64,000 bases of DNA, from contig JALHNL010000004.1 in the NCBI GenBank assembly GCA_022843545.1, positions 1 through 64,000 of the forward strand, written 5' to 3'. This stretch comes from Phycisphaerales bacterium (GTDB lineage Bacteria; Planctomycetota; Phycisphaerae; Phycisphaerales; UBA1924). Both the position numbers and the translations under genes were made by a program. Below the pieces are notes generated by a model. It did no database searches. It was not told the origin of the DNA and saw only the letters and a list, made by a program, of their open reading frames with translations. The stretch's first letter is position 1. Each line of letters begins with the position of its first letter. Below, in pieces: positions 283-15,701 of the stretch.

Positions 283-317
283 GATTGCCGAATGCCAGCT
301 GCCGATTGCCGGCTGCC
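283..317. repeat. Heptanucleotide array, 5 units (GATTGCC type)
   Basis: Five consecutive 7-base units: GATTGCC, GAATGCC, AGCTGCC, GATTGCC, GGCTGCC. The last four bases are nearly constant (TGCC) and the period is exactly 7. It lies between the TAG at 242 and the GTG start at 411. Other arrays with the same period but different units occur at 6165, 12706, 12753 and 15604. Confidence 0.8.
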
Positions 318-410
318 ACTCCCCGCACCGTTCGCTTCACTGCCCACCAGATCCGCCCCCGCATCTCCGGGCAAGATTCCGAATCCGCTTCAAGCGAACT
401 AACATCGCTC

Positions 411-1019
411 GTGCGTAAGCGGCTGGCCATCGCGTGCGGGCTCGTGCTGCTCGGAGTCATCCTCTCACACATCTCGGCCTGGATCTGCGTGGCGGTTCAT
501 GGACTGGATGCCCCTCGGGCCGAGGCAAGACGCGCCAGCATCGAGGCCGACGGTCGAGTGATGGAATATGGACGCGCCTTTGGATATCGATGGGGTCTGC
601 ACTCCCAGTTTGTTGCTCCCCAAGGCATGCGAAAGCCAGACGCCGAATCCACCCCCGACTGGCTCACGGCCCATTCACTGAGCGAGGGTGACGTGTACTG
701 CGCCTATGGCTGGCCCGCCGTGAGCGTCGAGCGAATAACGCGCTTCGAAGCGCTGTACTGGTTCGACCACGGGGACGAATTAGCCGCCAGTTCGAGGCTC
801 GCCCATTTCCGCATCGGCTCGATGTTCTTCCCGCTCGAACCGAGATGGACTGGGCTGATGATCAACACCGCCTTCTACGCTCTCGGTGTGCTGGGCGTGC
901 GTGCAGTCTGGCTGGCTTTCTGGGCTTGGAAGCGAAGGGGCTGCTGCCTGGCGTGCGGCTACAGCCGGGCGGGTTTGCCGATCACTTCAAGGTGCCCGGA
1001 ATGCGGCACGCAGCCCTGA
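411..1019 (+). CDS. Membrane protein with C-terminal Cys4 zinc ribbon
   Basis: A 202-residue protein of unknown function. I chose the GTG at 411 (MRKRLAIACG...), because an upstream ATG at 285 would translate the heptanucleotide array as an N-terminus. A hydrophobic segment at about residues 5-27 and another at about 145-170 (LGVLGVRAVWLAFWAW) bracket a soluble, probably extracytoplasmic region. The last 25 residues form a zinc ribbon with CLACGY and CPECG knuckles. This is one of six proteins of this type in the window, all membrane-associated and all next to unrelated genes. The ribbon probably faces the cytoplasm, because it follows a TM segment and a basic KRRG stretch. The partner and role are unknown. 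Confidence 0.75.
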   Translation: MRKRLAIACGLVLLGVILSHISAWICVAVHGLDAPRAEARRASIEADGRVMEYGRAFGYRWGLHSQFVAPQGMRKPDAESTPDWLTAHSLSEGDVYCAYGWPAVSVERITRFEALYWFDHGDELAASSRLAHFRIGSMFFPLEPRWTGLMINTAFYALGVLGVRAVWLAFWAWKRRGCCLACGYSRAGLPITSRCPECGTQP

Positions 1020-1057
1020 ACCGCGTCGAAGCGACGCCCGCAAAAGCCTCTCGCCGC

Positions 1058-1795
1058 TCACGCCCCCAGCGTGCTGGGGCGGAGCAGCTTGACATCGTTG
1101 AGCTCGCCCACCGCGTAGCGCACGGCTGTGCGCGTGAGCAGGTCGACCGCGTCGTAGAGGGGCACCGGTGTCGGCGGGGCGTCTTCCATGAGCAGCGGAG
1201 CCTCGCTGAAGGCGACGATGACCGCCTCGGCCCCGCGGGCCTTCATGCGGGCGATCACCTCGAAGAACTCGCGCCGGCTGTCCTCCATCACGTCGCCGTG
1301 GACCAGTTCGTTGAAGATCATCCCGTCGATGAGGTGCGCGTCGGCCGGCTCGGGCGCGATGACCTTCACGCCCTTGAGGCCAAGGGTGGTCTGGTAGGTC
1401 GCGCCGAACATGACCTTGCTGGTGCCGATGACGCCCACGGTCTTGCGCTGGTCCTTCACGACGGCGTCGGCCACCAGGTCGGTCATCAGCAGCCAGGGGA
1501 TGGGCGAGAGGGGCGCGGCGTAGTGAACGGCGTGCTGCATCACATTGTCGGGGGTGATGCAGAACTCAGCGCCGGCCTGGGCGACGGTGCGCGCGGAGCG
1601 CAGAAGCAACTCGCCGACGGTCTGCCAGTCGTCGGACTGCGCGGCGTGGAGGTAGCGTTCGAACGGCTCGTTGTGCAGCGTGACCGTGGGGTGCCCGGTC
1701 TCGCCCACATAGTCCTCGGCGAGACGATGGATCTGGCGGTAGCAGACCGCGGAACCCTCGGGGCTGACTGCGGCGATGCCGATGTGCTTGGGCAA
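1058..1795 (-). CDS. Aspartate/glutamate racemase-fold protein lacking the usual catalytic cysteines
   Basis: A 245-residue protein. The start is a TTG at 1795 with GGAG nine bases upstream; the frame further upstream looks non-coding. The fold is suggested by the N-terminal HIGIAAVSPEG, by NEPFERYL, by TPDNVMQH in place of the first active-site loop, and by AFSEAPLL in place of the second. Family members normally carry a cysteine in each loop (CNTAH- or CPDNT-like, and GCTE). Here these positions read Thr/Pro and Phe, so cofactor-independent racemisation by the two-cysteine mechanism is not expected. It may be a binding protein or a variant lyase/isomerase. It is divergent from hscB. Confidence 0.75.
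   Translation of the reverse strand: MPKHIGIAAVSPEGSAVCYRQIHRLAEDYVGETGHPTVTLHNEPFERYLHAAQSDDWQTVGELLLRSARTVAQAGAEFCITPDNVMQHAVHYAAPLSPIPWLLMTDLVADAVVKDQRKTVGVIGTSKVMFGATYQTTLGLKGVKVIAPEPADAHLIDGMIFNELVHGDVMEDSRREFFEVIARMKARGAEAVIVAFSEAPLLMEDAPPTPVPLYDAVDLLTRTAVRYAVGELNDVKLLRPSTLGA
1064..1079. repeat. Short palindrome overlapping the racemase 3' end
   Basis: Seven-base arms CCCCAGC and GCTGGGG around a 2-base centre (GT). It forms the last codons of the racemase-like gene. The core resembles the palindrome at 57957 (CCAGCACGCTGG) and belongs to the dispersed palindromes described in the findings. Confidence 0.5.
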
Positions 1796-1897
1796 CGGTG
1801 GGCACTCCAACCGGCGGATGGGCCGGGGGTAAGTGTATGGAAGCGGAAAGTCGGAGCGTTGCGCCGAGCGGGCGGCGGGCCGGTACGCTATCGGATC

Positions 1898-2404
1898 GTG
1901 AGCGGCGACGCATTCGACATCCTGGGGTTGCCGGCGAAGTTTGACCTGGCCGCGGCGGAGATCCAGCGCGCCTACTTGGCCCGGATCACCTCCCTGCACC
2001 CCGACGCCCGGGGAGGCGTGGAGGATCCCGAAGTGGCCAGGCTGAACGCGGCGAAGCAAACGCTGGACGATGCGGAAAGCCGCGCTTCGACGCTCCTGAC
2101 CAGACTGGGCGGCGCAAGCAAGGAGCAGGACCGCTCCTTGCCCGATGGATTCCTTATGCGGATGATGGCAGCGCGGGAGGCGCTCGACGAGGCGAAGGCC
2201 GCAGGGCGGACGGCGGAGCTGGATCGCTTCGTGGATGAGGCGGAGCGGGCACGCGAAGGGCACATCCGGGAAGTCGGTCGGCTCTTCAGCGTGGCGGCGG
2301 GGGGTGACCGCGGCGCGCTGACCGCCATCCGCCGTGAACTGAACGCCTGGCGATACATCGAACGGCTGCTGGAGCAGGTGGATGCCGGCGGGGGCGGACT
2401 ATGA
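1898..2404 (+). CDS. hscB: Fe-S cluster co-chaperone HscB (J-domain)
   Basis: 168 residues, the usual HscB length (about 170). The N-terminal J-domain (residues 4-75) has the diagnostic HPD at residues 34-36, which stimulates the ATPase of the Hsp70 partner (HscA or DnaK). The C-terminal helical domain begins at about residue 83 with FLMRMMAAREALDEA, which matches the FLMEQMELRE-type helix that binds the IscU scaffold in known HscB proteins. The GTG start at 1898 is the first in-frame start before the J-domain; no clear Shine-Dalgarno is visible. No iscU or hscA is nearby. The stop overlaps the next ATG (ATGA), so translation is coupled to the DUF21/CBS genes. Confidence 0.85.
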   Translation: MSGDAFDILGLPAKFDLAAAEIQRAYLARITSLHPDARGGVEDPEVARLNAAKQTLDDAESRASTLLTRLGGASKEQDRSLPDGFLMRMMAAREALDEAKAAGRTAELDRFVDEAERAREGHIREVGRLFSVAAGGDRGALTAIRRELNAWRYIERLLEQVDAGGGGL

Positions 2405-3744
2405 CGCTGGGGCTGTGGGCGATGGCGCTGACGCTGCCGGTGCTGCTGCTGGTGTGCGGCGCACTGTCGGCGCTGGAGACCGCGCTGTTCAGCCTGAGTT
2501 ATCACGACCGCACGCGGCTGGCGAAGACGGACCCCGGGCTGAGCCGCGTTGTGGACAGGCTCTTGGCCCGCCCGCGCGAGCTGCTGGTGAGCAACCTGCT
2601 GGTGAACATGATCTCCAGCACGCTGTTCATGGTGCTCACCACGCTTTTGGCGGCGGAACTCACCAACGTGTGGCTGCAGGTGGGCCTGGCGGCGTTGAAC
2701 TTGCTCGCGATGACGCTGATGGCGGAGGTGGTGAGCAAGATGCTGGCGGTGCGGTACCGCCTGGCGGTGTGCGCGCTGCTGGCGAGGCCGATGCTCGGGC
2801 TGTTCCTGGCGCTGGGGCCCCTGCGGGTGTTCCTGGATCGCGGGGTCATCGAGCCGATCTCGCGGCTCCTGCTCCCGCGGCGCACGCCCGAGCGGCTTTC
2901 GCTGGATGAACTGGCGTCGCTGCTTGAACTGGGCGCGAGCCAGGGGGCGATCGGCGCCGATGAGCACCGCGTGCTCCGCCAGGTCATCGGGTTCGGGTCG
3001 CTGCGGGTGCGAGACATCATGACCCCGCGGGTGGACATGGAGTGGCTCAGCACGCGGGCGACCGTGGAGGATGTTCGCACGATGGTGGCGCGGACTCGCC
3101 TCACTCGCGTGCCCGTTTGCCCCGCGCCCGCGGCGATTCCCAAGCCCGGCGCCCCCACCGGCCTCGACGCGGGCGTGGTCGGCTTCCTGAACACGAAGCG
3201 GTACCTGTCGGCCTCGCTGGATCGCCCGAGCGTGAAGTTGGAAGAGTTCATCGAGCCGGTGGTCTACATCCCCGAGACCACAACCCTCGACCGGCTGCTG
3301 GAACGCGTCCGCGGATCGGCGGTGAAGATCGCGCTGTGCGTGGATGAGCACGGGGCCGTCGTGGGCGTGGTGACCGCGCAGGACGTGGTGGGCCGGCTCG
3401 TAACCGAGGTGGGATCGGGCGGCTCCGCGACCGAGGCGAGCGGCGACGAGCGCGTAACGAGCGAAGGACCGGGGCGGTGGAGCGTGCCGGGGCGGATGGG
3501 CGTGCACGACTGGGCGCAGATGTTCGGCCTCAGGCTCGATCCGCGCGTAAGCACGGTGGCGGGCTTCGTGATGGCGCAGCTCGGGCGCCTGCCCAAGGTG
3601 GGCGACGCGGTGACGCTCGGGAACCTGAAGCTGGAGGTGTCGGCCTTGGACGGGCGGGTGGTGGATCGCGTGCTGGTGAGCCTTGATGATCGCGGCGATT
3701 CGGCGGCGGGGTTTGGTGGCGCCGGGGCGGAGGTGCGCCGGTGA
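2401..3744 (+). CDS. HlyC/CorC-type membrane protein (DUF21-CBS-CorC)
   Basis: 447 residues in the order expected for the CNNM/CorC family: an N-terminal DUF21 transmembrane domain (about 1-190, three to four hydrophobic segments), a paired CBS module (about 200-330, starting VRDIMTPRVDM), and a C-terminal CorC_HlyC domain (about 345-435, with VAGFVMAQLGRLPKVGD). Relatives are implicated in Mg2+/Co2+ efflux and sensing, with nucleotide binding at the CBS pair. The ATG overlaps the hscB stop. Its own stop overlaps the GTG of the next, paralogous gene. Transport activity is inferred from the family only. Confidence 0.85.
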   Translation: MTLGLWAMALTLPVLLLVCGALSALETALFSLSYHDRTRLAKTDPGLSRVVDRLLARPRELLVSNLLVNMISSTLFMVLTTLLAAELTNVWLQVGLAALNLLAMTLMAEVVSKMLAVRYRLAVCALLARPMLGLFLALGPLRVFLDRGVIEPISRLLLPRRTPERLSLDELASLLELGASQGAIGADEHRVLRQVIGFGSLRVRDIMTPRVDMEWLSTRATVEDVRTMVARTRLTRVPVCPAPAAIPKPGAPTGLDAGVVGFLNTKRYLSASLDRPSVKLEEFIEPVVYIPETTTLDRLLERVRGSAVKIALCVDEHGAVVGVVTAQDVVGRLVTEVGSGGSATEASGDERVTSEGPGRWSVPGRMGVHDWAQMFGLRLDPRVSTVAGFVMAQLGRLPKVGDAVTLGNLKLEVSALDGRVVDRVLVSLDDRGDSAAGFGGAGAEVRR

Positions 3745-4727
3745 TCACCTGGTCCGACGGATTCTGGACGCTCCTGGCCGTGCTGGGCACCGTGCTGTCA
3801 GCGGTGTGCGCCGGGGCGGAGATGGGGACATACTCGCTGAACCGTGTCCGCTTGAACCTTCGTGCGGCGGCGGGGCGCAGGCGATCCGTTCTGCTGAAGC
3901 GCGAGGTGGAGTCGGGACCGCGGCTTCTGGCGACGCTGCTCCTGGGATACAACCTGTTCAGCTACGTGGGCGCGCTGGGGATGACGACCTTGCTGCAGCG
4001 CGCGGGCTACAGCGAACTGGTGATCGTGCTGCTGAACATCCTGGTCATCGGGCCGGTGCTCTTCGTGACCCAGGACACCATGCCCAAGGAGGTGTTCAGA
4101 GCGGAAGCCGACCGGCTGATGCACACCATCGCCGTTCCGATCTCCATCTTCAGATTCGCTCTGACGGTGACGCTGGTGCTGCCGCTGGTGCAGGGCGTGG
4201 CGCGGGGTGTGGCGGCGCTGCTGCCGGGGACGGGCGAGGAGGAAGCGGTGGAATCGGCCCGGCAGCGGATGGCGGTGCTGCTGAAGGAGGGCGCGACGCA
4301 CGGGGCCATCTCGGCGGCGCAGGCATCGATGGTGGACCGCGCGCTGGGCCTGCGCGACGCGCAGGTGGGCGATGAAATGACCCCCTGGGCTTCGGCGCAG
4401 ACGGTGATGCTCTCCTGGGACGCGGCCCGTCTGCACGCGTTCCTGCGCGGGCGGGCGCTCTCACGCTATCCCGTCGTGGACGCGCGCGGATCGGTGGTGG
4501 GGATGGTGGAGCACCTGGACGCCTCGCTGCGGCCCGACCAGCCCGTGTCCGGGCTCATGAAGCCGATCGCGACGCTGCGAGCGGAAATGAGCGTGCGCGA
4601 CGCGCTCGTCAAGATGCGCGAAGAGGGCGCACGGTTGGCGGTGGTGATGCAGGGGACCAAGCCCGTCGGCGTGGTGACGGGCAAGGACCTGTGCGAACCG
4701 CTGACCGGCGAACTGCGGGCGTGGTGA
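3741..4727 (+). CDS. DUF21-CBS membrane protein lacking the CorC domain
   Basis: 328 residues, with a GTG start overlapping the previous stop (GTGA). It has a DUF21 transmembrane domain (about 1-175) followed by a CBS pair (about 208-325, with SRYPVVDARGSVVGMV and LAVVMQGTKPVGVV). It ends directly after the second CBS and has no CorC_HlyC domain, unlike its upstream neighbour. Two unequal paralogs made from one coupled mRNA suggest a heteromeric membrane complex in which only one subunit carries the CorC domain. This pairing of long and short forms is an inference from gene order. Confidence 0.8.
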   Translation: MITWSDGFWTLLAVLGTVLSAVCAGAEMGTYSLNRVRLNLRAAAGRRRSVLLKREVESGPRLLATLLLGYNLFSYVGALGMTTLLQRAGYSELVIVLLNILVIGPVLFVTQDTMPKEVFRAEADRLMHTIAVPISIFRFALTVTLVLPLVQGVARGVAALLPGTGEEEAVESARQRMAVLLKEGATHGAISAAQASMVDRALGLRDAQVGDEMTPWASAQTVMLSWDAARLHAFLRGRALSRYPVVDARGSVVGMVEHLDASLRPDQPVSGLMKPIATLRAEMSVRDALVKMREEGARLAVVMQGTKPVGVVTGKDLCEPLTGELRAW

Positions 4728-4813
4728 CGCGGTGGGCATATTCGCTCTCACGGCCGCGCGCCAAGCGATCAGCACGCGGTGGAGCTGGTTGAAGCATCGG
4801 CAACGGGTGCGTT

Positions 4814-6145
4814 CTACCGCTCCATCGCCACCAGGTCGTCGTACGTCTCGCGCCGGCGGATCACCTCGAAGTTCGCGCCGTCCACCATCACCTCCGCCGG
4901 CAGCGGATGGCTGTTGTAGCGAGAGGACATCGCCGCGCCGTACGCCCCGGCCGAGTACACGGTCAGCAGGTCGCCACGGGCCACCGCGGGCAAGGCGCGC
5001 TCCTTGGCCAGGAAGTCGCCGCTCTCGCACACCGGCCCCACGACATCGCAGACTTCAAGGCCGGGCAGGTCGGGCCGCTCCGCACGACGGACGGGCTCGT
5101 GCTGGGGTGAAACGCTGGCGGGCCAGATGAAGTGGAACGCGTCATACAGGCTGGGCCGGATGAGCGTGTGCATGCCCGCGTCGCACACCACAAACTTCTT
5201 GGCGCCTTCCACCTTCACGAAGAGCACGCGCGTGAGCAGCACGCCCGCGTTGGCCGCGATCGCCCGCCCGGGCTCCAGGATGATCCGAAGGCCCTTGTCC
5301 GCACGTTCCTGGAGCAAAGGCGTGATCACGCGGGCGTACTCCGCGGCGGCGGGCGCGTCGCCCGTCTGGTAGTCGGCCCCGAAGCCCCCGCCCAAATCCA
5401 GCGTGTCGATGACCACCCCGTCGTTCTTGGCCTGGTCGATGATCTCGAGCGTTCGGCGGACAGTCTCGACATACGGCGCCGTGTCCAGAATGGACGAGCC
5501 GATGTGCACATGCACGCCTGAAAGCCGTAAATGCGGGTCGTTGCCGAATCGCGCCAGCATGGCGCGGGCGTGGGCGGGCGAGACGCCGAACTTGTTCTCC
5601 GCGGCGCCGGTGGAGATGTAGTCATGCCCGCCCGCCTTGACCCCGGGGTTGACGCGGAGCGCGGCGCGCGCGCGGACGCCCATGGCCCGGGCGATGGCGG
5701 CGATGGCCATGTACTCAGGCTCGCTCTCGATGTTGAAGATCACGCCGTGGGCGGGCTCCGGTCCGTCGGCAACGCCCGCGGTCGCATCACGGCTCCACGC
5801 CAGGGCCTCGCGGATCTCGGCATCAGTCTTGCCCACGCCGGCAAAGACGACCGAGGAAGGATCAGCCCCGGCCAGCCGCGCGCGGTGGATCTCGCCCCCG
5901 GACACCACGTCCAGCCCCGCGCCCTCGCGCACCAGCGTGCGGAGAACGGCAATATTGGAACAGCACTTAACGGCGAAGCACACGCGGGCGCGAAGAGGCG
6001 CAAAGGCCTTCTGAATCTTGTGCAGGTGCATGCGCAGCGTGGCGGCGGAGTAGACGTACGTGGGCGTGCCCACCTCGACGGCCACACGGGCGAGGGGCAC
6101 GTCCTCGGCGAACAGTTCACCATCGCGGTAGTGAAAGTGGTCCAT
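4814..6145 (-). CDS. lysA: Diaminopimelate decarboxylase
   Basis: 443 residues; makes L-lysine from meso-diaminopimelate using PLP. Visible fold-type III motifs are CFAVKCCSN with the PLP lysine, HVHIGSSI, the glycine loop LDLGGGFGADY, EPGRAIAANAG, VGPVCESGD with the active-site cysteine contributed across the dimer, and YSAGAYGAAMSSRYN near the C-terminus. The ATG at 6145 begins MDHFHYRDGEL and fits the family. The longer frame upstream is the translated heptanucleotide array, which sits only 20 bases before this start. dapB, another gene of the pathway, lies elsewhere in the window at 33131. Confidence 0.95.
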   Translation of the reverse strand: MDHFHYRDGELFAEDVPLARVAVEVGTPTYVYSAATLRMHLHKIQKAFAPLRARVCFAVKCCSNIAVLRTLVREGAGLDVVSGGEIHRARLAGADPSSVVFAGVGKTDAEIREALAWSRDATAGVADGPEPAHGVIFNIESEPEYMAIAAIARAMGVRARAALRVNPGVKAGGHDYISTGAAENKFGVSPAHARAMLARFGNDPHLRLSGVHVHIGSSILDTAPYVETVRRTLEIIDQAKNDGVVIDTLDLGGGFGADYQTGDAPAAAEYARVITPLLQERADKGLRIILEPGRAIAANAGVLLTRVLFVKVEGAKKFVVCDAGMHTLIRPSLYDAFHFIWPASVSPQHEPVRRAERPDLPGLEVCDVVGPVCESGDFLAKERALPAVARGDLLTVYSAGAYGAAMSSRYNSHPLPAEVMVDGANFEVIRRRETYDDLVAMER

Positions 6146-6164
6146 GGGGGAGAGTAGAAGGGGA

Positions 6165-6201
6165 GCGTGGTGCGTGGTGCGTGGGAGAGGCGGTAGGCGG
6201 T
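6165..6201. repeat. Heptanucleotide array upstream of lysA (GCGTGGT and AGGCGGT)
   Basis: Three units GCGTGGT, GCGTGGT, GCGTGGG (6165-6185), then after two bases AGGCGGT twice (6188-6201). The period is exactly 7. It lies 20 bases upstream of the lysA start, so in the 5' leader or promoter of lysA. The GCGTGGT unit recurs at 12753-12794. Confidence 0.8.
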
Positions 6202-6297
6202 AGAAGACGGGCGAAGAGAAGAAGCCAAGTGGAGCAGAGCACCTTGGAGACGCAGTTGCTTGGGCCGAGGCATTGATGCCTGAGGCCAATAGTCGAG

Positions 6298-7635
6298 ATG
6301 AACGCACCGCCCGCCTCTGCGAGCGAGGCGGTACCCAGTACGCCACCGCGCTTACCCTCCTCCGTCATGAGCATGCCGACGACTCAGAGCGTGATCCCGG
6401 AGATGTGCGGCCTGGCGAAGTCGGCTGCGCGGGTGGTGAGCGTTTTGACCACGGCGACCAAGAACGCGGTGCTGATGGACGTGGCCGAGCGGGTCATCCG
6501 CCATCGCGGGCAGATCGCCGAGGCGAACCGGTCGGATGTGGAAGCCGCACGTCGCGCGGGCCTGGGCGACGCCAAGGTCCGCCGACTGGTGCTGGACGAC
6601 GCGGGCATCATGCAACTCGCCGAGGGCCTGCGGCAGGTGGCGGGTCTGCCCGACCCGGTGGGCCAGGTGGTGCGGGACTACCGCACCGAGTCCGGCCTGC
6701 GCGTGCGCCGCGTGCGCCGCCCCCTGGGTGTGATCTGCATGATCTACGAAGCGCGACCCGCCGTCACGCTCGACGCCTTCGCCCTGGCCTTTAAGGCCGG
6801 CAACGCGGTGGTCCTCAAGGGCGGACGCGAGGCGGCGGGAACCAGCAGCGTGCTGGCCGCGCTGGCGCACGAATCGCTGAGCTCGCACGGCGTGCCGAGG
6901 GCGGCACTGACGGTGCTGCCGCCCATCGAGCGCGATCAGTTGCCGGTGCTGCTCGCTCAGGACAAGTCCATCGATCTGGTGATCCCGCGCGGCGGCACGG
7001 AACTCATCCGCTTTGTCGCGGCCCACACGCGGATCCCGACGATCCAGCACTACCACGGCATCTGCCACATCTTCGTGGACGAGTCGGCGGACCTGGACCG
7101 CGCGATCGAGATCTGCGTGACCGCCAAGGCTGGCGCGCCGGCGACGTGCAACGCGGCGGAGTGCGTGCTGGTGCACGCGGGGATCGCGCGCGAGTTTGTG
7201 CCGCGGCTGGCGCACGCGATGCGGGCGCGGGGCGTGGAGGTTCGGGCGGAGGCACGGGCGGCGAGTTTGGCGCCGGCGGGGACGGTGACGGCGGCGAAGG
7301 ACGACGATTTCGGGCGCGAGTTCCTGGACCTCATCGTCGCGTTCAAGGTGGTCGACGGCCTGGACGACGCGATCGCGCACATCGAGCGGTTCGGCTCCAT
7401 GCACACCGAGGCGATCTTGACGCGCGACGAAGCGAACGCCGCGGAGTTCTGCCGACGCGTGCAATCCTCATGCACGCTCGTCAACGCCAGCACCCGCTTC
7501 AACGACGGGTTCCAACTGGGGCTGGGCGCGGAGATCGGGATCAGCACCACGCCGCTGCACGCGTTTGGGCCGATGGGCCTGGAGGAACTGACGATCACAC
7601 GCTTCATCGCGGAGGGGACGGGTCAGGTGAGGTAG
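6298..7635 (+). CDS. proA: Gamma-glutamyl phosphate reductase
   Basis: 445 residues; reduces gamma-glutamyl phosphate to glutamate-5-semialdehyde with NADPH in proline synthesis. The ALDH-like fold shows RRPLGVICMIYEARP, AVVLKGGREA, VIPRGG, QHYHGICHIFVD, the catalytic cysteine at residue 284 in ATCNAAE, and HTEAILT. The ATG at 6298 adds about 35 residues before the conserved part (MCGLAKSA). The ATG at 6367 is an equally reasonable start, and neither has a strong Shine-Dalgarno. It is divergent from lysA across an intergenic region holding a 7-bp repeat array. No proB is nearby. Confidence 0.93.
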   Translation: MNAPPASASEAVPSTPPRLPSSVMSMPTTQSVIPEMCGLAKSAARVVSVLTTATKNAVLMDVAERVIRHRGQIAEANRSDVEAARRAGLGDAKVRRLVLDDAGIMQLAEGLRQVAGLPDPVGQVVRDYRTESGLRVRRVRRPLGVICMIYEARPAVTLDAFALAFKAGNAVVLKGGREAAGTSSVLAALAHESLSSHGVPRAALTVLPPIERDQLPVLLAQDKSIDLVIPRGGTELIRFVAAHTRIPTIQHYHGICHIFVDESADLDRAIEICVTAKAGAPATCNAAECVLVHAGIAREFVPRLAHAMRARGVEVRAEARAASLAPAGTVTAAKDDDFGREFLDLIVAFKVVDGLDDAIAHIERFGSMHTEAILTRDEANAAEFCRRVQSSCTLVNASTRFNDGFQLGLGAEIGISTTPLHAFGPMGLEELTITRFIAEGTGQVR

Positions 7636-8452: not shown

Positions 8453-8547
8453 GTGTGGAACGGTATTCGCGGGCGGCGGATCGCGAAAATGGCGAAGCCG
8501 ATCTCGCGTGTCTGATGAGTTGGCCTTGGCGCGGTCGGAGCGATGGC

Positions 8548-8575
8548 CCGGGGGGCTTGCGCCCCTCGGCTCTGC
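8548..8575. repeat. Dispersed palindromic repeat, copy 1
   Basis: GGGGC, TTG, GCCCC-type hairpin followed by CGGCTCTGC. A near-identical copy lies at 9309-9336, so the two copies flank the gene at 8578-9294. Both sit in short spacers between minus-strand genes. No run of U follows, so a simple Rho-independent terminator is unlikely. Confidence 0.7.
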
Positions 8576-8577
8576 TT

Positions 8578-9294
8578 CTACCGGAACAGCCCCGGCTGGT
8601 CCTTCAACGTAATGGGCGTGCCGCACTCGGGGCACACGTCGGCGGTGCCGGCGTGGAGGTTGTGGCCGCAGTTGACGCAGGGGGCGGGGTCATGATGCGC
8701 CAAGTGGCGGCGGATGAAGGCACGTTCGTCGCCGCCGCCGGCGCTTTTCATCCAGCGAAGGCAAGTCTCCCGAAACTCCTCGGGGGTGCCGTGAGGCTGG
8801 ATGAGCTGCTGGAAGATGGTGGCGATCATCTGATTTGGCCACGCAAAGATGAGCACGCTACGGCCCAGGATCATGACTCGGGAGACCTCGCTCCACGGAG
8901 TCACCACGGGCAGCCCGCCACGCTCGGAAACGGAAATCCCCGTCGCGTCGATGCCGATGCGGAGCCGCGGGTGAGGGGACCGGAGATAAGTCCGGCGAAT
9001 GACACGCCACTCCGCCGCGCACACGGCGAGAACTCCGACCGCAAAGAAGGGCCAGGGCGACAGACCTCGAGATGAAGCCGACCAGATGGCGACCCCCAGC
9101 ATGATCGCGGCGATGACGACCAGCGTCGGCCCCAAGACCAGAACGCGAAAGCCGGCCTTCACGGCGGGGCCGAGCCTTGCATGGCGCACGGAGAACCACA
9201 GGTCCTGCCAGGGACTGTCGAGATCTTCGTCGGACCAGTCGATGACAAACTCGAAGTTCTCGGGCATGGAAGAGTCTGGGGTTGTCGGCGTCAT
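8578..9294 (-). CDS. YcxB-like membrane protein with C-terminal zinc ribbon
   Basis: 238 residues. The start is set at the ATG at 9294; an internal ATG at 9267 is possible. Two TM segments occupy about residues 45-90. A soluble part follows (GISVSERGGLPVVTPWSEVS, then RSVLIFAWPNQMIATIFQQL), which has the pattern of the YcxB-like C-terminal domain: a small strand-rich module with a conserved Trp-Ser and a final helix. The C-terminus carries a zinc ribbon (CVNCGHNL and CPECG). Function is unknown. Flanking palindromic repeat copies suggest that the gene and its spacers have been a duplication or insertion site. Confidence 0.7.
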   Translation of the reverse strand: MTPTTPDSSMPENFEFVIDWSDEDLDSPWQDLWFSVRHARLGPAVKAGFRVLVLGPTLVVIAAIMLGVAIWSASSRGLSPWPFFAVGVLAVCAAEWRVIRRTYLRSPHPRLRIGIDATGISVSERGGLPVVTPWSEVSRVMILGRSVLIFAWPNQMIATIFQQLIQPHGTPEEFRETCLRWMKSAGGGDERAFIRRHLAHHDPAPCVNCGHNLHAGTADVCPECGTPITLKDQPGLFR

Positions 9295-9308
9295 CTCATG
9301 AGACGAGA

Positions 9309-9336
9309 CCCGGGGGCTTGCGCCCCACGGCTCTGC
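9309..9336. repeat. Dispersed palindromic repeat, copy 2
   Basis: Second copy of the GGGGGCTTGCGCCCC hairpin plus CGGCTCTGC, in the spacer between the YcxB-like gene and speA. It differs from the copy at 8548 at only a couple of positions. Confidence 0.7.
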
Positions 9337-9346
9337 ACGCACGGGC

Positions 9347-11338
9347 TCACTCTTCGAGGTACGTATACCCCTCCAGCCCGTCGTCGTAGAACTTCATGAG
9401 CGACTTGCCTTCGGGCAGCGACAGCCGGCCTTGCTTGCAGGCGGCTTCGATGTCCATGCGGATGGCGCGCTTGAGGTCTTCGTGGTCGTACTGCACGTAC
9501 TTGAGGACCTCTTCGACGGTGTCACCCTCGATGACTTCCTCGATCTCCCACGAGCCGTCGGGGCTCAGCGCGAGGTGGACGGCGTGGGTGTCGCCCAGAA
9601 GGTTGTGGAGGTCGCCCAGGATCTCCTGGTACGCGCCCAGCAGGAAGACGCCCAGGTAGTACGGCTCGACGCCCGCGCACTCGCCGGGGAGGTCCTTGAC
9701 GGTGTGGAGTTCCAGCGTCTTCTTCTCCACGCGCTTGTCGACGAAGCGGTCGATCTTGCCGTCCGAGTCGCAGGTGATGTCGGCGAGGATGCCGCGGCGA
9801 GTAGGCTCTTCTTCGAGGCGGTGGATGGGGACGATGGGGAAGAGCTGGTCGATGGCCCAGGAGTCGGGCATGCTCTGGAAGAGCGAGAAGTTGCAGAAGT
9901 AGATGTCGCTGAGCAGGTCGGGCAGGTTCTCGAACTCGTTGGGCAGTTCGCCGCGCTTGCTGGCTTTCTCGAGCAGTTTGTGCCCGATGGCCCAGAACAG
10001 CCGCTCGGCGACGGCGCGCATGGGCAACGACATGTAGCCCAGCGAGAAGAGGCTCATCGCTTCGTCGCGGGCCTGCGTGGAGTCGTGGTACGCCTCCAGC
10101 AGGTTGCGATCGGTCATCGTGTTGTACGTCTCGAGCAGGTCCAGCACCGGCTGGGGCACTTCGGTCTCGGCCTTCATGGCCTCGAGGATGCTGGGCATCT
10201 CCGGATCGGCGGCGAACTGGCTCGTGCCCAGCACGTCCATGATGAGCACCGACGAGTACGCGACCATGGCGCGGCCGGACTCGGTGATGACGCGGGGGTG
10301 GGGCACCTTGGCGTCGTCGCAGACGGACTTGATGCGGTACACCACGTCGGCGGCATATTCCTGAACGGTGTAGTTGATCGACGACGACCACGCCGACTGC
10401 GACCCGTCATAGTCGATGCCCATGCCGCCGCCGATGTCGAGGGTGGTGACGCCGGCGCCGAGGCGGTGGAGTTCGCAGTAGACGTGGGTGAGTTCGTTGA
10501 CGGCGTTTTTGAGGACGCGGATGTCGTACAACTGGCTGCCCACGTGGCAGTGGACGAGGTTGAGGCAGTCGAGCATGCCGTGCTTCTTGAGGTACTCGAC
10601 GGCCTGCAGCACCTCGGACACGAACAGCCCGAACTTGGAACGCACGCCCGCCGACGACTCCCAGCGCCCCGCGCCGCGCGACGAGAGCTTCACGCGCACC
10701 CCGATCTTGGGGCGGACGCCGTACGCCTTGGCGTGCTTGACGATCAGTTCCAGTTCACTGAACTTCTCGACGACGGGGATGATGTTGCGCCCGAGCTTGG
10801 TGGCCAGGATGACGGTTTCGATGAACTCGTCGTCCTTGAAGCCGTTGCAGATGATGGGCATGCCGTTGACGCCCGGACCGCCCGCAGAAGCGGAGAGGCC
10901 CAGCACGGCGAGCAGTTCGGGCTTGGAGCCGGCCTCAAGGCCGAAGTCCAGTTCGACGGCGAGCGAAGCGATCTGCTCGCAGACGTGACGCTGCTGGTTG
11001 ACCTTGATGGGGTAGACGCAGCAGTAGCCGCCGGCGTACTGCTGCTCGGCCATCGCGTCGTTGAAGGCTTTGCGCATCTCGCGCAAGCGGTGTTCGAGGA
11101 TGTCGTTGAAGCGCAGCAGCACCGGCGTGTGGATGCCGCGGTCGCGCAGGCCCTGAACGACCTCGTGCAGGTCGATCTGGCGCGCGGGGTCCTTCGTGGG
11201 CATGATCGTGCAGTGACCCGCGGGGTTCACGCCCACGTAGCCCTTGCCCCAGTCGTGCAGGCCGTAGAGCTTGGCGGATTCCTCCACCGTCCAGCGACCA
11301 TGAAGGAAGATGTTCTTCGATGAGGAGATGGTGGCCAT
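9347..11338 (-). CDS. speA: Biosynthetic arginine decarboxylase
   Basis: 663 residues, the normal length for the SpeA family. It decarboxylates arginine to agmatine, the entry to polyamine synthesis. The PLP lysine is Lys112 in YPIKVNQQ. Other conserved parts are NGFKDDEFIE, HCHVGSQLYDI, LDIGGGMGIDYDGS, ESGRAMVAYSSVLI and the C-terminal FLLGAYQEILGDLHNLLGD. The ATG at 11338 starts at the expected N-terminus. No agmatinase or other polyamine gene is adjacent. Antisense open frames are shadows of its codon bias. Confidence 0.95.
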   Translation of the reverse strand: MATISSSKNIFLHGRWTVEESAKLYGLHDWGKGYVGVNPAGHCTIMPTKDPARQIDLHEVVQGLRDRGIHTPVLLRFNDILEHRLREMRKAFNDAMAEQQYAGGYCCVYPIKVNQQRHVCEQIASLAVELDFGLEAGSKPELLAVLGLSASAGGPGVNGMPIICNGFKDDEFIETVILATKLGRNIIPVVEKFSELELIVKHAKAYGVRPKIGVRVKLSSRGAGRWESSAGVRSKFGLFVSEVLQAVEYLKKHGMLDCLNLVHCHVGSQLYDIRVLKNAVNELTHVYCELHRLGAGVTTLDIGGGMGIDYDGSQSAWSSSINYTVQEYAADVVYRIKSVCDDAKVPHPRVITESGRAMVAYSSVLIMDVLGTSQFAADPEMPSILEAMKAETEVPQPVLDLLETYNTMTDRNLLEAYHDSTQARDEAMSLFSLGYMSLPMRAVAERLFWAIGHKLLEKASKRGELPNEFENLPDLLSDIYFCNFSLFQSMPDSWAIDQLFPIVPIHRLEEEPTRRGILADITCDSDGKIDRFVDKRVEKKTLELHTVKDLPGECAGVEPYYLGVFLLGAYQEILGDLHNLLGDTHAVHLALSPDGSWEIEEVIEGDTVEEVLKYVQYDHEDLKRAIRMDIEAACKQGRLSLPEGKSLMKFYDDGLEGYTYLEE

Positions 11339-11589
11339 CGACGCTGACGGGTCCTGTCACGAATGTCGGCCTTGGCGTCGGCGGGATCGTGTCCGCGACA
11401 GGGCCAAGGCCGGTGCGGCAGCGCGAGGTCGGCGAGTGCGCATTTCGCCGGCGCGCTGCGTGAGAGAAACGATATCGCCTTTCGACGGCGGAGCAAGCGC
11501 GGATTTGAGAAATGCGCTTCGCGTTACCCATTGGCGGCCGGGAGACTCCTAGCGGGCGAATCCGAACCGCTCGACCGTGAAAGGCCCCC
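11339..11589. other. Divergent intergenic region speA / OYE
   Basis: A 251-base region between two divergent genes that must hold both promoters. Nothing specific was recognised; no heptanucleotide array, no long hairpin and no small ORF with a clear Shine-Dalgarno. Confidence 0.5.
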
Positions 11590-12699
11590 ATGCCCGATCT
11601 GTTCACCCCGATGCACCTGGGCGACATCGCCATCCCCAACCGCGTGCTCATGGCCCCGCTCACGCGGTGCCGGGCGGGGGCCGGCTTCGCCCCCACCGCT
11701 CTGAACGCGCAGTACTACGCCCAGCGTGCCGGGTCGGGGCTGCTGATCAGCGAGGCCACCTGCATCGAGCCCCGGGCCCACGGATACCCCAGCGTCCCAG
11801 GCATCCACACGCCCCAGCAGGTCGCCGGTTGGCGGCTCGTCACCGACGCCGTCCACGCCGCCGGCGGCCGGATCGTCTGCCAACTCTGGCACGTCGGGCG
11901 CGTCTCGCACTCGGCCTACCAGCCCGGCGGGGCCCCCACCGTGAGCAGCGCGGCGGTGGCGAAGGCGTCGGCGGTGCGGCTGCCCGACGGGTCGCGGGTC
12001 CCGGCCGACGCGCCGCGGGCCCTGACCTCGCGGGAGGTGTGGGAGGTGATCGAGCACTACCGACAGGCTGCGCGGCTGGCGAAGGAGGCGGGCTTCGACG
12101 GCGTCGAGATGCACGGGGCCAACAGTTACCTCCCCGAGCAGTTCCTCCGCGACGGGCTGAACACGCGGACGGACGAATGGGGCGGCACTCTGGAGAACCG
12201 GGCGCGGTTCCATCTCGAGGCCGTCAAGGCCTGCGTCGACGTCTGGGGGCCCGGGCGAGTGGGCGTCCGGCTTTCACCCTCGGGCGCCTACGCGGACCTG
12301 ACCGAGTCCAACCCCCGTGGCACCTACGGCTACTTGGTGCAGCGCCTGGACGACATGGGCCTGGCGTACCTGCACATCATGGAAGCCTGGGTGGGCGACG
12401 AGGCCAAGACGCGCCGCGAACTGCCCTGGTGGGAGCCGATCCCGGTGTCGTACTTCCGCGGGCTGGCGAAGCGGACGCCGATCATCGTGAACTCGGGGTT
12501 CACATTCGAGAAGGCGACGGCGTATCTGCGCGAGGGGTGGGCGGATGCGGTGGCGTTCGGAAGGCTGTACATCGCCAACCCGGACCTGGCGGAACGCTTC
12601 AAACGGGGCGGGGCAGGGGCGGCGCTGAACACGCCGGATGAGAGCACGTTTTACACGCCGGGGGAGCGGGGGTACACGGACTATGCGGGGATGGAGTAG
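11590..12699 (+). CDS. Old Yellow Enzyme family alkene reductase
   Basis: 369 residues; an FMN-dependent ene-reductase of the NemA/OYE type that uses NADPH to reduce activated C=C bonds, nitrate esters or electrophiles. It starts LFTPMHLGDIAIPNRVLMAPLTR, the typical barrel start. The substrate-binding pair is HGAN (His-x-x-Asn). It is followed by YLPEQFLRDGLN, TDEWGG and NRARF, the family signature. The C-terminal phosphate-binding part has VAFGRLYIANPDL, and the end HxFYTP...GYTDY is typical. The ATG at 11590 needs no adjustment. The natural substrate cannot be read from context. Confidence 0.92.
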   Translation: MPDLFTPMHLGDIAIPNRVLMAPLTRCRAGAGFAPTALNAQYYAQRAGSGLLISEATCIEPRAHGYPSVPGIHTPQQVAGWRLVTDAVHAAGGRIVCQLWHVGRVSHSAYQPGGAPTVSSAAVAKASAVRLPDGSRVPADAPRALTSREVWEVIEHYRQAARLAKEAGFDGVEMHGANSYLPEQFLRDGLNTRTDEWGGTLENRARFHLEAVKACVDVWGPGRVGVRLSPSGAYADLTESNPRGTYGYLVQRLDDMGLAYLHIMEAWVGDEAKTRRELPWWEPIPVSYFRGLAKRTPIIVNSGFTFEKATAYLREGWADAVAFGRLYIANPDLAERFKRGGAGAALNTPDESTFYTPGERGYTDYAGME

Positions 12700-12705
12700 A
12701 GGGAG

Positions 12706-12733
12706 CGCGAATCGCGAATCGCGAGTGGCGAAT
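12706..12733. repeat. Heptanucleotide array, 4 units (CGCGAAT type)
   Basis: CGCGAAT, CGCGAAT, CGCGAGT, GGCGAAT in tandem, starting six bases after the OYE stop. It is separated by about 20 bases from a second array of different unit. Confidence 0.8.
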
Positions 12734-12752
12734 CGGGATGAGGGGAATAGGG

Positions 12753-12794
12753 GCTTGGTGCTTGGTGCGTAGTGCGTGGTGCGTGGTGCGTGGT
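12753..12794. repeat. Heptanucleotide array, 6 units (GCTTGGT/GCGTGGT type)
   Basis: GCTTGGT x2, GCGTAGT, GCGTGGT x3, in exact 7-base register. The GCGTGGT unit is shared with the array upstream of lysA (6165). It lies in the convergent spacer between the OYE gene and the zinc-ribbon gene ending at 12913. Confidence 0.85.
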
Positions 12795-12912
12795 GGAAGA
12801 GGGAAAGACAGAGAAGCGCTTGGGTTAGGCGGGGTGATTGACCGGGGCTTGGCGTTGATGGGGTGGCGCGGGACTGGCTGTCCCTTGACAGACACGTGGA
12901 TGGGGCCCGAGT

Positions 12913-13728
12913 TCACGAACGATCGCTTGCGCGCCGGGCTTCGTCAGCGGGACCTGGGTCCGGGGTGGTCGGCAGGGGCGGCTGGCCCATCGCCTCGACC
13001 ATCGCCGCGTGCGGCTTGCTGCCGGGCCAGAAGCGGTTGAGGTCGCCGCATTCGGGGCAGGTGACGGCGTTGTTGACCAGGGGGATGCCGGCGAGGGGGT
13101 ATTGGCAGCCGCCGCAGCGGGGGAGACCATGCCCCTCGCGCAAGCTGATGAGGCGGCGTCGCCAGTCGAGGGTGTTCACTTGTGTCACCAGTGCGAACAA
13201 GAGGCCCAAGGCGATGACCGACAGGAGCACGGTGGTCAACGTGGACAGAACGAGCTCAGAGGCTCGCACGCCCGGGATGGCGACGAGTTCGGCGCTGATG
13301 GCCTGGCCGCCCCATCTGGAGGCCTTGAGTGCGAACGAAAGACCGAAGCAGATCAAGATCGAGTGAAGGAACTGAAACACCCGGGAGGGCGGCAGTCGGC
13401 GATCAACCGTGCGAGCCAGACGCCAACGTCGCGCGTCGGACCAATTCTCAAACTCGGCGAGCCCTCGCGTGACGCGCCGCGCATGCCAAGCCTTGAAGGC
13501 CTGCACGGCGGGCTTGGTGAGCCACAATGAGAGCGCCCTCAGCCAGTGGGGTGCATCCTGCTTGTAGCCGGCGGACAGGAACGCCCCCCCAAGGATGAGC
13601 GCCACGAGAAACGCGGCCGCGGGGCCCACGAAGTACGCGACCAGCGGCACCAGCGCGAAACCGCAAAGGGCAATCCCAGGGGGCACCGCCCACGACCCGC
13701 CCTTCGGCTTGGCGCGCTCGCCCCCCAC
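12913..13728 (-). CDS. Membrane protein with zinc ribbon
   Basis: 271 residues, with a GTG start at 13728 immediately after the TGA of the upstream esterase (no gap), so probably co-translated with it. Hydrophobic segments lie at about 14-50 (probably two helices), about 118-135 and about 160-185. A zinc ribbon follows at about 200-228 (CGGCQYPL and CPECGDLNRFW), then a Pro-rich tail. The middle part (FENWSDARRWRLARTVDRR) resembles the corresponding stretch of the protein at 7604 (FANWSKKRFNT, DERDAVVRRIM), so the two appear to be paralogs beyond the ribbon. Function is unknown. Confidence 0.75.
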   Translation of the reverse strand: MGGERAKPKGGSWAVPPGIALCGFALVPLVAYFVGPAAAFLVALILGGAFLSAGYKQDAPHWLRALSLWLTKPAVQAFKAWHARRVTRGLAEFENWSDARRWRLARTVDRRLPPSRVFQFLHSILICFGLSFALKASRWGGQAISAELVAIPGVRASELVLSTLTTVLLSVIALGLLFALVTQVNTLDWRRRLISLREGHGLPRCGGCQYPLAGIPLVNNAVTCPECGDLNRFWPGSKPHAAMVEAMGQPPLPTTPDPGPADEARRASDRS

Positions 13729-15102
13729 TCACTTCCCCTTGGCGGGGAACAGGAACTTCAGGGCGGCTTCGGCGCGGGCGGCCCAGGCGGCTTCGGTGTG
13801 CTCGGCGTCGGTGTTGTTGGCGTCGACGGTGGCGCCGGCGGCCTTGAGGCGCTCGGCGAAGTCGGCGGCGTGGGCGAGGTAGGACTGGTTGGACTCGCGC
13901 GAGGCTTCGTCCTTGCCGGCTTCCATGGTGCCCATGCCGAAGTAGACGCGGGCGGGCCAGCGGGCGACGGACTCGAAGTGCTTGAGGGTGACGGCGGACT
14001 TGCCCAGGCCGCTCATGCTCTCCAGGTAGAGCTTGCCGAACTTGTCGGGGTGCCTCGCGCCGGCCTCGGCGGCGATGAGCGCGCCGAGGGAGGAGCCGCC
14101 GATGGCGGTGTTCTCGGGGCCGGTCTTGACGCGGAAGGCGCGCTCCACGCGCGGCATGACCACGCCGGTGAGCCAGCGGACGTAATCATCGCCCCGCGGC
14201 GACGCGCCCTGAACGATCTCGAAGGGCGAGTACTCGCTGGCCCGCGCCGCGCCCTGGTGCGGGATGCCGACGATGATCAGCGGCTCGATCGCGCCGCTCT
14301 TGATGAGGCGGTCGGCGGCTTCGTCAAGCCCCCACTCGGCGGGGACGTTGGGCAGCTTCATGAACAGGTTCTGCCCGTCCTGCATGTACAGCACCGGGTA
14401 GGTCTTGCCCTTGTTCTCCGGCGCGTCATAGCCCGGGGGCAGATACACCAGCAGGTCGCGCTGGCCGTTGTCCGCGACGATGCCGCCCCCGGGAACCTGC
14501 AGCCGGCGGATGGTGCTGTCGCTCTTGACTTCGTAGTAGGGGTTGAGGTCGGGGCGCTGGGCGCTGGTGGGGCGCTGGTCGCCCCACTTGGGGACCTCAA
14601 ACTCGAAGACGGGGCGCTCGTCGGGGCCCAACTTGGACTTGTCGATGGGCGGCAGCGAGCGGTTGTTGATGACCTTGAGTTCCGTGTCGAGCTCTTCAAG
14701 GTCCCACGAACCGCGCGTGAACTTGAACGCGATCGGAGTGTCCGGGCGCCCCTTGGGGATCACGATCTGCCAGCGGCCGTCGCTGCGGGGCTCGAGCTGC
14801 TGGGTGCGGTCGCTGGGGTCCCAGCCGTTCCACGAGGAGGCCAGATGGATCGGCGACTGCGTGGAGGCCAGGCCCGTGAGGTCCTTGACGATGAGCGTGA
14901 AGCCCTGCGGGAGATACTCGGGGCGGATCATGGTGGAGGGAGAAGCCGGCGCGGGCTCCGCGACGCGCGAGTTCGAGGCCAGCGCGAGGCGGGCGAACTG
15001 GTCGCGGCTCTTGCGGGCGGCATCGCGGTCGATCATGAACCACAAGCCGGAGACGATCGCGATGGGGGCCATGAGCCAACCGGTGAGGACGAACTTATTC
15101 AT
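13729..15102 (-). CDS. Membrane-anchored esterase of the feruloyl-esterase/Esterase D type
   Basis: 457 residues. The ATG at 15102 gives an N-terminal signal anchor (residues 4-24, VLTGWLMAPIAIVSGLWF), so it probably acts in the periplasm. An N-terminal strand-rich domain with SSWNGWDPSDRT (about 89-100) resembles a glycogen-binding/CBM48-like fold. The alpha/beta-hydrolase (PF00756-like) begins at about residue 195 with LLVYLPPGYD and LYMQDGQNLF. The nucleophile is Ser338 in GGSSLG, with the likely catalytic His in DAEHTEAAW. This matches the enterochelin/feruloyl esterase class; the true substrate is unknown. It is directly followed by the zinc-ribbon gene. Confidence 0.8.
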   Translation of the reverse strand: MNKFVLTGWLMAPIAIVSGLWFMIDRDAARKSRDQFARLALASNSRVAEPAPASPSTMIRPEYLPQGFTLIVKDLTGLASTQSPIHLASSWNGWDPSDRTQQLEPRSDGRWQIVIPKGRPDTPIAFKFTRGSWDLEELDTELKVINNRSLPPIDKSKLGPDERPVFEFEVPKWGDQRPTSAQRPDLNPYYEVKSDSTIRRLQVPGGGIVADNGQRDLLVYLPPGYDAPENKGKTYPVLYMQDGQNLFMKLPNVPAEWGLDEAADRLIKSGAIEPLIIVGIPHQGAARASEYSPFEIVQGASPRGDDYVRWLTGVVMPRVERAFRVKTGPENTAIGGSSLGALIAAEAGARHPDKFGKLYLESMSGLGKSAVTLKHFESVARWPARVYFGMGTMEAGKDEASRESNQSYLAHAADFAERLKAAGATVDANNTDAEHTEAAWAARAEAALKFLFPAKGK

Positions 15103-15305
15103 GGCCAAAGTGTATCCGCCGCGACGAGCAGGATGGCCCGTTCGGGGGGTGAACATGTTCCGAATCTGACGGACGGGCAAACCACGAAAGCCGTAGCCCT
15201 TGGCGCGACGGGTGGGCGGGGGTGTTGGCGAAATCCATTCTAGAAGCGAGGCCCGGGGCACTTTCGGCAAGCGCAACGGGCCGGAACAGGGGCGGGGGAT
15301 CAACC

Positions 15306-15593
15306 ATGTTTGACGCCTTCAACAAGACGTACGCCTGGATGTCCGAGGTGCTGGGCGGCAACGCCAACACGAACCTAGTGCTCATGGGGTTCGTCGCCAT
15401 CGGGCTGGGATGGCTCGTGCTGCGCGCCGTAAGGACCGGCGCGGCGATCGGCGCCGCGGCCCGCGCCACCGCCGGCAACGGCAGCGACCCGACGCTGCTG
15501 CTGGCCCTCCGCCAGGCCGAGGCCCGCATCAAGCAGTTGGAGGACGAGATCGACCAGTTGTCGCGTCAGCGGACGTATGGGCGAGCGGGGTGA
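15306..15593 (+). CDS. Small membrane protein with C-terminal coiled coil
   Basis: 95 residues, starting at the ATG at 15306 behind a G-rich Shine-Dalgarno-like stretch (GGGG about 8 bases upstream). One TM segment spans about residues 21-42 (NLVLMGFVAIGLGWLVLRAV). It is followed by an Ala/Gly linker and a heptad-like helix (LLLALRQAEARIKQLEDEID). It is probably a single-pass protein with a cytoplasmic oligomerising tail. No family was recognised. Confidence 0.65.
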   Translation: MFDAFNKTYAWMSEVLGGNANTNLVLMGFVAIGLGWLVLRAVRTGAAIGAAARATAGNGSDPTLLLALRQAEARIKQLEDEIDQLSRQRTYGRAG

Positions 15594-15603
15594 GGGGAAG
15601 AAG

Positions 15604-15638
15604 GCACTGGGCATCAGGCACCGGGCACTGGGAACTGG
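15604..15638. repeat. Heptanucleotide array, 5 units (GCACTGG type)
   Basis: GCACTGG, GCATCAG, GCACCGG, GCACTGG, GAACTGG in 7-base register, ten bases after the stop of the small membrane protein. A second short array with an 8-base period (GTCACCGC, GTCAACGC, GTCAACTC) follows at 15654-15677. Both lie in the convergent spacer with trmD. Confidence 0.8.
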
Positions 15639-15701
15639 TGGCCCAGCCACCTCGTCACCGCGTCAACGCGTCAACTCGGCACCCGAACTCCCTCATACCA
15701 A

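Follow-up and report, generated by a model that had tools for sequence, protein, structure and literature searches.

In the Phycisphaerales genome studied here, intergenic tandem arrays of 7- and 8-nt units point their G-rich strand outward from the nearest gene boundary, which lies ~10-15 bp away, in 60 of 70 ordinary arrays. This outward polarity is the strongest regularity of the arrays and was absent from the sequence-only reading of the window (the whole 64,000-nucleotide stretch of DNA that was analysed). The genome containing the window, a draft assembly of 149 contigs totaling 3.42 Mb, is ~93% complete, and the named neighbors of its TrmD among GTDB genomes are Phycisphaerales MAGs.

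The five sites originally picked out in the window all carry lag-7 repeats and all are intergenic, but they are of unequal quality: two are degenerate, two moderate and one strong. Together with a neighboring octamer array and the adjoining genes, they are as follows.

283..317, minus strand: degenerate heptamer array, G-rich strand units GGCAATC / GGCAGCC / GGCATTC
4814-6145, minus strand: lysA, the gene adjoining the 6165..6203 array
6165..6203, plus strand: moderate heptamer array, GCGTGGT x2.9 (6165-6184), then AGGCGGT x2.3 (6188-6203)
6373-7635: proA-like gene, aldehyde dehydrogenase family
11590-12699: FMN oxidoreductase gene (Pfam Oxidored_FMN)
12706..12735, plus strand: moderate heptamer array of CGCGAAT, outward, with leader AGGGAG
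12753..12795, plus strand: strong heptamer array, GCTTGGT x2, GCGTAGT, GCGTGGT x3
12913-13728: gene for an unnamed membrane-type protein
15603..15638, plus strand: degenerate heptamer array (75% matches), GGCACTG / GGCATCA / GGCACCG / GGAACTG
15648..15675, minus strand: octamer array, G-rich strand GTTGACGC / GGTGACGA, outward from trmD
15702-16451, minus strand: trmD (Pfam tRNA_m1G_MT)

The array at 6165..6203 begins 19 bp upstream of the lysA start codon and directs its G-rich strand away from that gene, with a purine-rich leader, GGGGGAGAGTAGAAGGGGA, between the two. The CGCGAAT array begins 6 bp beyond the stop codon of the FMN oxidoreductase gene and shares its intergenic region and strand with the strong array at 12753..12795. 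The array at 15603..15638 is likewise outward, 9-10 bp beyond the stop codon of an ORF at 15306-15593, and stands head-to-head with the octamer array, which lies 26 bp beyond the 3' end of trmD. One exception to the rule is the 283..317 array (labeled by TRF as a 14-mer, TGCCGAATGCCAGC), which is 41 bp from the 3' end of a gene ending at 242 and ~94 bp from a gene with a weak coding score starting at 411. The crowding of arrays into the first 16 kb, previously seen as a feature of the window, is mere sampling, as over the whole genome 7- and 8-mer arrays together average about one per 23 kb. No Rfam family matches within the window, and a known RNA family was rejected as the identity of the arrays on that ground.

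The spectrum of periods was obtained from 1.63 Mb, or 48%, of the window's own genome, with genes called by a simple in-house hexamer model (the first 1.25 Mb is 89% coding) and arrays scored by lag-p self-matches (+1/-2, score at least 14). Intergenic arrays number zero at each of periods 4, 5 and 6, then 44 at period 7, 20 at 8, 5 at 9, 1 at 10, none at 11 and one each at 12 and 13, whereas dinucleotide shuffles of the intergenic sequence give none at periods of at least 5 and 0.1 at period 4. Thus, the anticipated genome-wide excess of period 7 over 6 and 8 is present (44 versus 0 and 20; 0 in shuffles). The strictly constant 7-base period proposed in the sequence-only reading is not, since 8-mers form a second class of 20 intergenic arrays, one of them at 15648-15675. 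Of the suggestion that 7 bases are copied at a time, what stands is a process acting on ~7 bases, in line with the spectrum, and what falls is the constancy of the period. The spectrum has the appearance of a threshold at 7, with counts declining beyond it. Period-7 arrays are confined to intergenic DNA (44 intergenic versus 2 coding in the 1.63 Mb), whereas most arrays whose period is a multiple of 3 lie in coding sequence. Relatives yield one array at period 6, 15 at 7, 12 at 8 and one at 9, and the few arrays found in other phyla (none at period 6, four at 7, two at 8) follow the same shape as the own genome.

Two contigs of a relative, G360:C38 and G360:C155 (L281, L289), end inside heptamer arrays, and contig G335:C284 starts inside one, and short-read draft assemblies thus probably understate the number of arrays. 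A long perfect hexamer array, (GTTGCG)n of ~22 copies, is found in Acinetobacter sp. HY1485 (L184:19338-19468).

To measure polarity, each array was oriented by its G-rich strand and its distances to the genes on both sides were taken. The heptamers of the own genome have a median of 15 bp to the gene on the 5' side versus 115 bp to that on the other side (38/46 outward, P=9e-6), and the octamers 11 versus 119 bp (22/24, P=4e-5). The same geometry is seen in 30 other Phycisphaerales genomes (9 versus 106 bp, 29 of 31 arrays outward, P=5e-7) and in a congener pair of genus g81 (24 versus 97 bp, 15/15). Boundary-adjacent arrays from other phyla are a small sample, with all four outward (two from Pyrinomonadaceae, one each from Neisseriaceae and Akkermansiaceae). 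The near-homopolymeric poly-C/G heptamer arrays, represented in the own genome by L004, L008, L029 and L052, are a separate class, outward in 3 of 9.

The rule is seen at 3' ends, where the G-rich strand is sense, and at 5' ends, where it is antisense; 5' ends taken alone are weaker in the own genome (14/19 heptamers, P=0.06). Arrays are also more frequent at 3' ends (36 of 733 boundaries) than at 5' ends (13 of 913), and ~95% of 3' boundaries are array-free. Per kb of possible starts, array density is 0.85 for outward-near positions, 0.07 for inward-near and 0.10 far from genes, so that outward arrays are truly over-represented near genes. Inward arrays near genes are about as dense as the far background, and purifying selection against them was rejected on that ground. 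Rather than being scattered over the intergenic region, the arrays are pressed to the boundary (anchoring z ~5). Where two share an intergenic region, they are head-to-head in 10 cases, tail-to-tail in none and in the same direction in three. In none of the 10 head-to-head pairs do the two arrays share a unit, which argues against a conserved stem, and a hairpin function of the pairs was rejected accordingly.

Polarity of the 7-mers increases with array strength, from 69% to 77% to 86%, and weak 8-mers have none, so selection on expanded arrays may contribute. No purity gradient marking a growing end was found along the arrays, and directional growth could not be read from them on that basis.

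Between boundary and array lies a leader that is 70-77% purine, compared with ~50% at array-free 3' ends. Array-free 3' ends have neither G nor purine skew and 5' ends have a slight skew; a compositional bias of gene ends was thus rejected as the source of polarity. At 3'-end arrays, the sense RNA is rich in G and in purines and folds more weakly than at other 3' ends (minimum free energy -20.2 versus -24.8 kcal/mol, P=7e-5). U-runs in the sense RNA occur at 3% of array-bearing 3' ends versus 8% of array-free ones. With less stable RNA and rare U-runs, the arrays were rejected as intrinsic terminators.

The units had been described as free and mutually unrelated, and a census of the own genome (score at least 12) overturns this: 56 heptamer arrays fall into 22 unit classes, and three units, GCGTGGT (11), GTGCTGA (8) and AGTGATC (8), account for 27 of the 56. 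A GTG core is common to most units of this genome. Each genome has a small vocabulary, a 'dialect' common to the congeners examined. The triple GCGTGGT array was found only in the own genome among 61 genomes, and GTGCTGA arrays in the own genome and three other genera of the family, as well as at one acidobacterial locus. A relative, G012, carries ACTGGGG and AATCCCC. Among the matches listed for the pattern AGTGNNN x3 + AGTG, which is matched in 99 of 400 Phycisphaerales genomes and 65 of 163 genera, congeners have units in common (AGTGATG in g151, AGTGGTC in g52). The AGTG core of this pattern is fixed by design and a reversed control also matches many of those genomes, so the search demonstrates the spread of arrays and gives AGTG no privilege. 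Matches of this type vary from 97 to 0 within genus g78 (G216, G245, G351), a range that makes this genus well suited to studies of array gain and loss. Units also switch in phase, as from GTGCTGA to GTGCGTG at L025:274-347. In genome G009, a long, strongly decayed AT-rich heptamer array of the AAATCTG family follows a GTGCTGA array in phase (L090:1-177).

Turnover was compared in genus g81, in which G335 and G360 are ~91% identical and G225 is ~81-85% identical. Copy number differs by whole units at orthologous loci of these relatives: ~1.5 versus 19 and 1 versus 9.5 octamers, and at one site 8.7 versus 3.7 heptamers. At the L298 site, an array of 11 units is matched in the sister by an imperfect two-unit seed directly at the stop codon and in G225 by nothing, whereas at L285 eight units face an empty site in the sister between otherwise conserved flanks. 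The expectation that homologous arrays would keep their period and change their unit was half borne out, as the period is kept but the unit usually is too. Several g81 loci (L280, L283, L287, L288, L290, L292, L293, L297) carry a composite of (AAGTCACG)n, a AAGAGAATACTCC-like linker and (GTGAGTC)n, and some copies continue with a conserved block and (CTTCGCCA)n. The common non-repetitive linkers of this dispersed composite indicate that copying of whole elements also occurs. In the own genome, the flanks of same-unit arrays are unrelated except for the purine-rich leader.

The enzymes searched for in the own genome narrow the possible makers. MutS is present, and loss of mismatch repair was rejected as the cause. 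Ku has no match in the ~93% complete genome and is found in 4 of 32 array-rich versus 2 of 31 array-poor genomes, on which an origin by NHEJ was rejected. Y1_Tnp has 0 matches in the own genome and G360, and RVT_1 has 0 in the own genome and several array-rich genomes; a Y1/RAYT transposase (a REP/RAYT-type element) and a reverse transcriptase or telomerase-like maker were rejected on these grounds. Within the 93% completeness, then, Ku end-joining, RAYT and reverse transcriptase appear unneeded here.

We tentatively propose that the arrays are fast-turnover repeats produced when replication or repair slips by at least 7 nt, an event favored where untranslated purine-rich transcripts exit genes. 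Beside a gene boundary, the new strand would jump back by at least 7 nt; shorter jumps would be blocked, probably by the grip of the polymerase on the last 6-7 bp, and jumps of greater length would quickly become rarer. Slippage would be favored, or its products retained, where RNA polymerase exits the gene and ribosomes no longer cover the transcript, that is, beyond the stop codon or, in antisense, beyond the start codon. There, the purine-rich and weakly structured transcript may form an R-loop that exposes the G-rich non-template strand, which would account for the outward orientation of this strand beyond a purine-rich leader. Existing arrays may in turn template new ones by short-homology strand switching, and this would give both the genome-specific vocabulary and the in-phase unit switches. 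The slippage proposal draws support from the step between periods 6 and 7, the polarity, the leader, the weak RNA structure, the changes by whole units and the excess of 3' over 5' ends. Counted against it is the situation at 5' ends, where the main transcript heads into the gene and carries the C-rich sequence; outward antisense transcription is thus required for the rule to apply there. Also counted against it are the missing purity gradient and the unpolarised weak 8-mers, which leave room for selection, and the copying of whole elements in g81.

Selection is central to the rather doubtful alternative that outward G-rich arrays are functional elements, acting as insulators or as 3'- or 5'-end elements that limit read-through or protect mRNA ends. 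The outward excess near boundaries does go beyond tolerance, polarity grows with array strength, and the geometry recurs across phyla (PMC4692102, PMC4679880 and our own survey of other phyla). However, arrays present in one species are absent or seed-like at the orthologous site in another, period and units vary between neighboring genes, and ~95% of 3' boundaries do without an array. Nor do the less structured sense RNA and its rare U-runs fit intrinsic terminators, and Xanthomonas arrays have no functional class bias (PMC4692102). It is unlikely that the arrays are ordinary slippage microsatellites under no special rule, with location and strand incidental. Such a reading accommodates the whole-unit copy-number differences at orthologous sites, the heptamer excess known from other bacteria (PMC4692102) and the lack of a dedicated enzyme in the Ku, Y1_Tnp and RVT_1 searches, but it is already in difficulty: it predicts neither the outward polarity (60/70; 29/31; 15/15) nor the boundary anchoring (z ~5), the 10 head-to-head versus 0 tail-to-tail pairs or the common vocabulary, and at array-free 3' ends there is neither a G nor a purine skew by which seeds could be biased.

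The g81 composite, present at several loci and in some with a common downstream block, would suit dispersed mobile or copied intergenic elements that spread beside genes by recombination or an unknown transposition route. We hold this to be quite improbable for the arrays as a whole, given that the flanks of same-unit arrays in the own genome are unrelated save for the purine-rich leader, that Y1_Tnp is unmatched there and in G360, and that sites vary by whole units or short seeds rather than by element-sized insertions with target duplications. Very improbable is a telomere-like healing, in which a terminal or templated polymerase would add G-rich 7-8 nt repeats to broken ends, extending them outward, and subsequent fusion of the ends would leave head-to-head arrays. 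It would account for the outward G-rich strand, the 7-8 nt unit, the genome-specific units and pairs that are head-to-head and never tail-to-tail, yet reverse transcriptase and Ku are unmatched in the own genome and several array-rich genomes. Moreover, L285 is an insertion into conserved flanks, L298 is growth of a two-unit seed, and the arrays hug the gene boundary instead of being scattered across the intergenic region.

These findings bear on a bacterial heptamer excess that has been noted for years without explanation. A size threshold combined with a strand-and-boundary rule that is independent of the unit and free of G-quadruplexes turns it into a testable question on gene ends, one that concerns the geometry of polymerase slippage, R-loops and untranslated transcription. 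It also cautions against a case-by-case reading of such repeats as G-quadruplex switches or translation signals.

Intergenic heptanucleotide arrays with fixed units are familiar as the STRR of heterocystous cyanobacteria, and to our knowledge none of the main units here is an STRR heptamer. The heptamers of heterocystous cyanobacteria are also mentioned in a study of Xanthomonas GGGNATC and Nostoc GGGGA(C/T)T repeats, which are dispersed, mostly intergenic and of period 7, with heterogeneous units around a core (PMC4692102). According to this source, which cites Mrazek 2007, a period excess and its likely origin in slippage have been published for other bacteria. Proximity to ORFs with a polarity, and convergent pairs, are likewise already published for Xanthomonas, where arrays average 28 nt to the 5' ORF and 160 nt to the downstream ORF, 70-75 inverted pairs are convergent and repeats vary between close species (PMC4692102). 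The arrays here share with Xanthomonas and Nostoc the period, the intergenic and dispersed location and the proximity of an ORF on the 5' side of the G-rich strand, and with Xanthomonas the convergent pairs; the units of G012, ACTGGGG and AATCCCC, are Nostoc units of PMC4692102. The GGG-bearing units of those genera fold as G-quadruplexes, the key property for the authors (PMC4692102). In contrast, our main units (AGTGATC, GTGCTGA, GCGTGGT) contain no GGG, which means that outward geometry does not need a G-quadruplex, and there is here an octamer class of equal polarity.

Direct repeats of TAACTGA occur in marine Beggiatoaceae, Cyanobacteria and Bacteroidetes (PMC4679880). In Beggiatoaceae and F. 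litoralis the sets are mostly forward and just upstream of start codons, one F. litoralis set is reversed just after a stop codon, a Microcystis sample is of mixed orientation, and most differences between Cyanothece strains are indels in steps of 7 nt (PMC4679880). Outward geometry is common to these repeats and ours, including the reversed F. litoralis set, but there one unit per genome is found mainly at 5' ends and here several units mainly at 3' ends. Chloroflexus aurantiacus has satellites derived from the heptamer GATAGRA (PMC6749651), which resemble our arrays as a genome-specific dispersed heptamer family; their unit is unrelated and gene polarity is unreported there. Among the non-subscription papers searched, we found none that joins these heptamer families into one rule. 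The repeats of Xanthomonas, Nostoc and Beggiatoaceae seem to obey the outward rule found for our arrays, which suggests a directed DNA stutter at gene boundaries. Conceivably, such a directed process lays 7-8 nt repeats with the G-rich strand outward at gene boundaries in many bacterial phyla; the Xanthomonas, Nostoc, Beggiatoaceae and Phycisphaerales families would then be its products, and the 7-nt limit would reflect the replication or transcription machinery.
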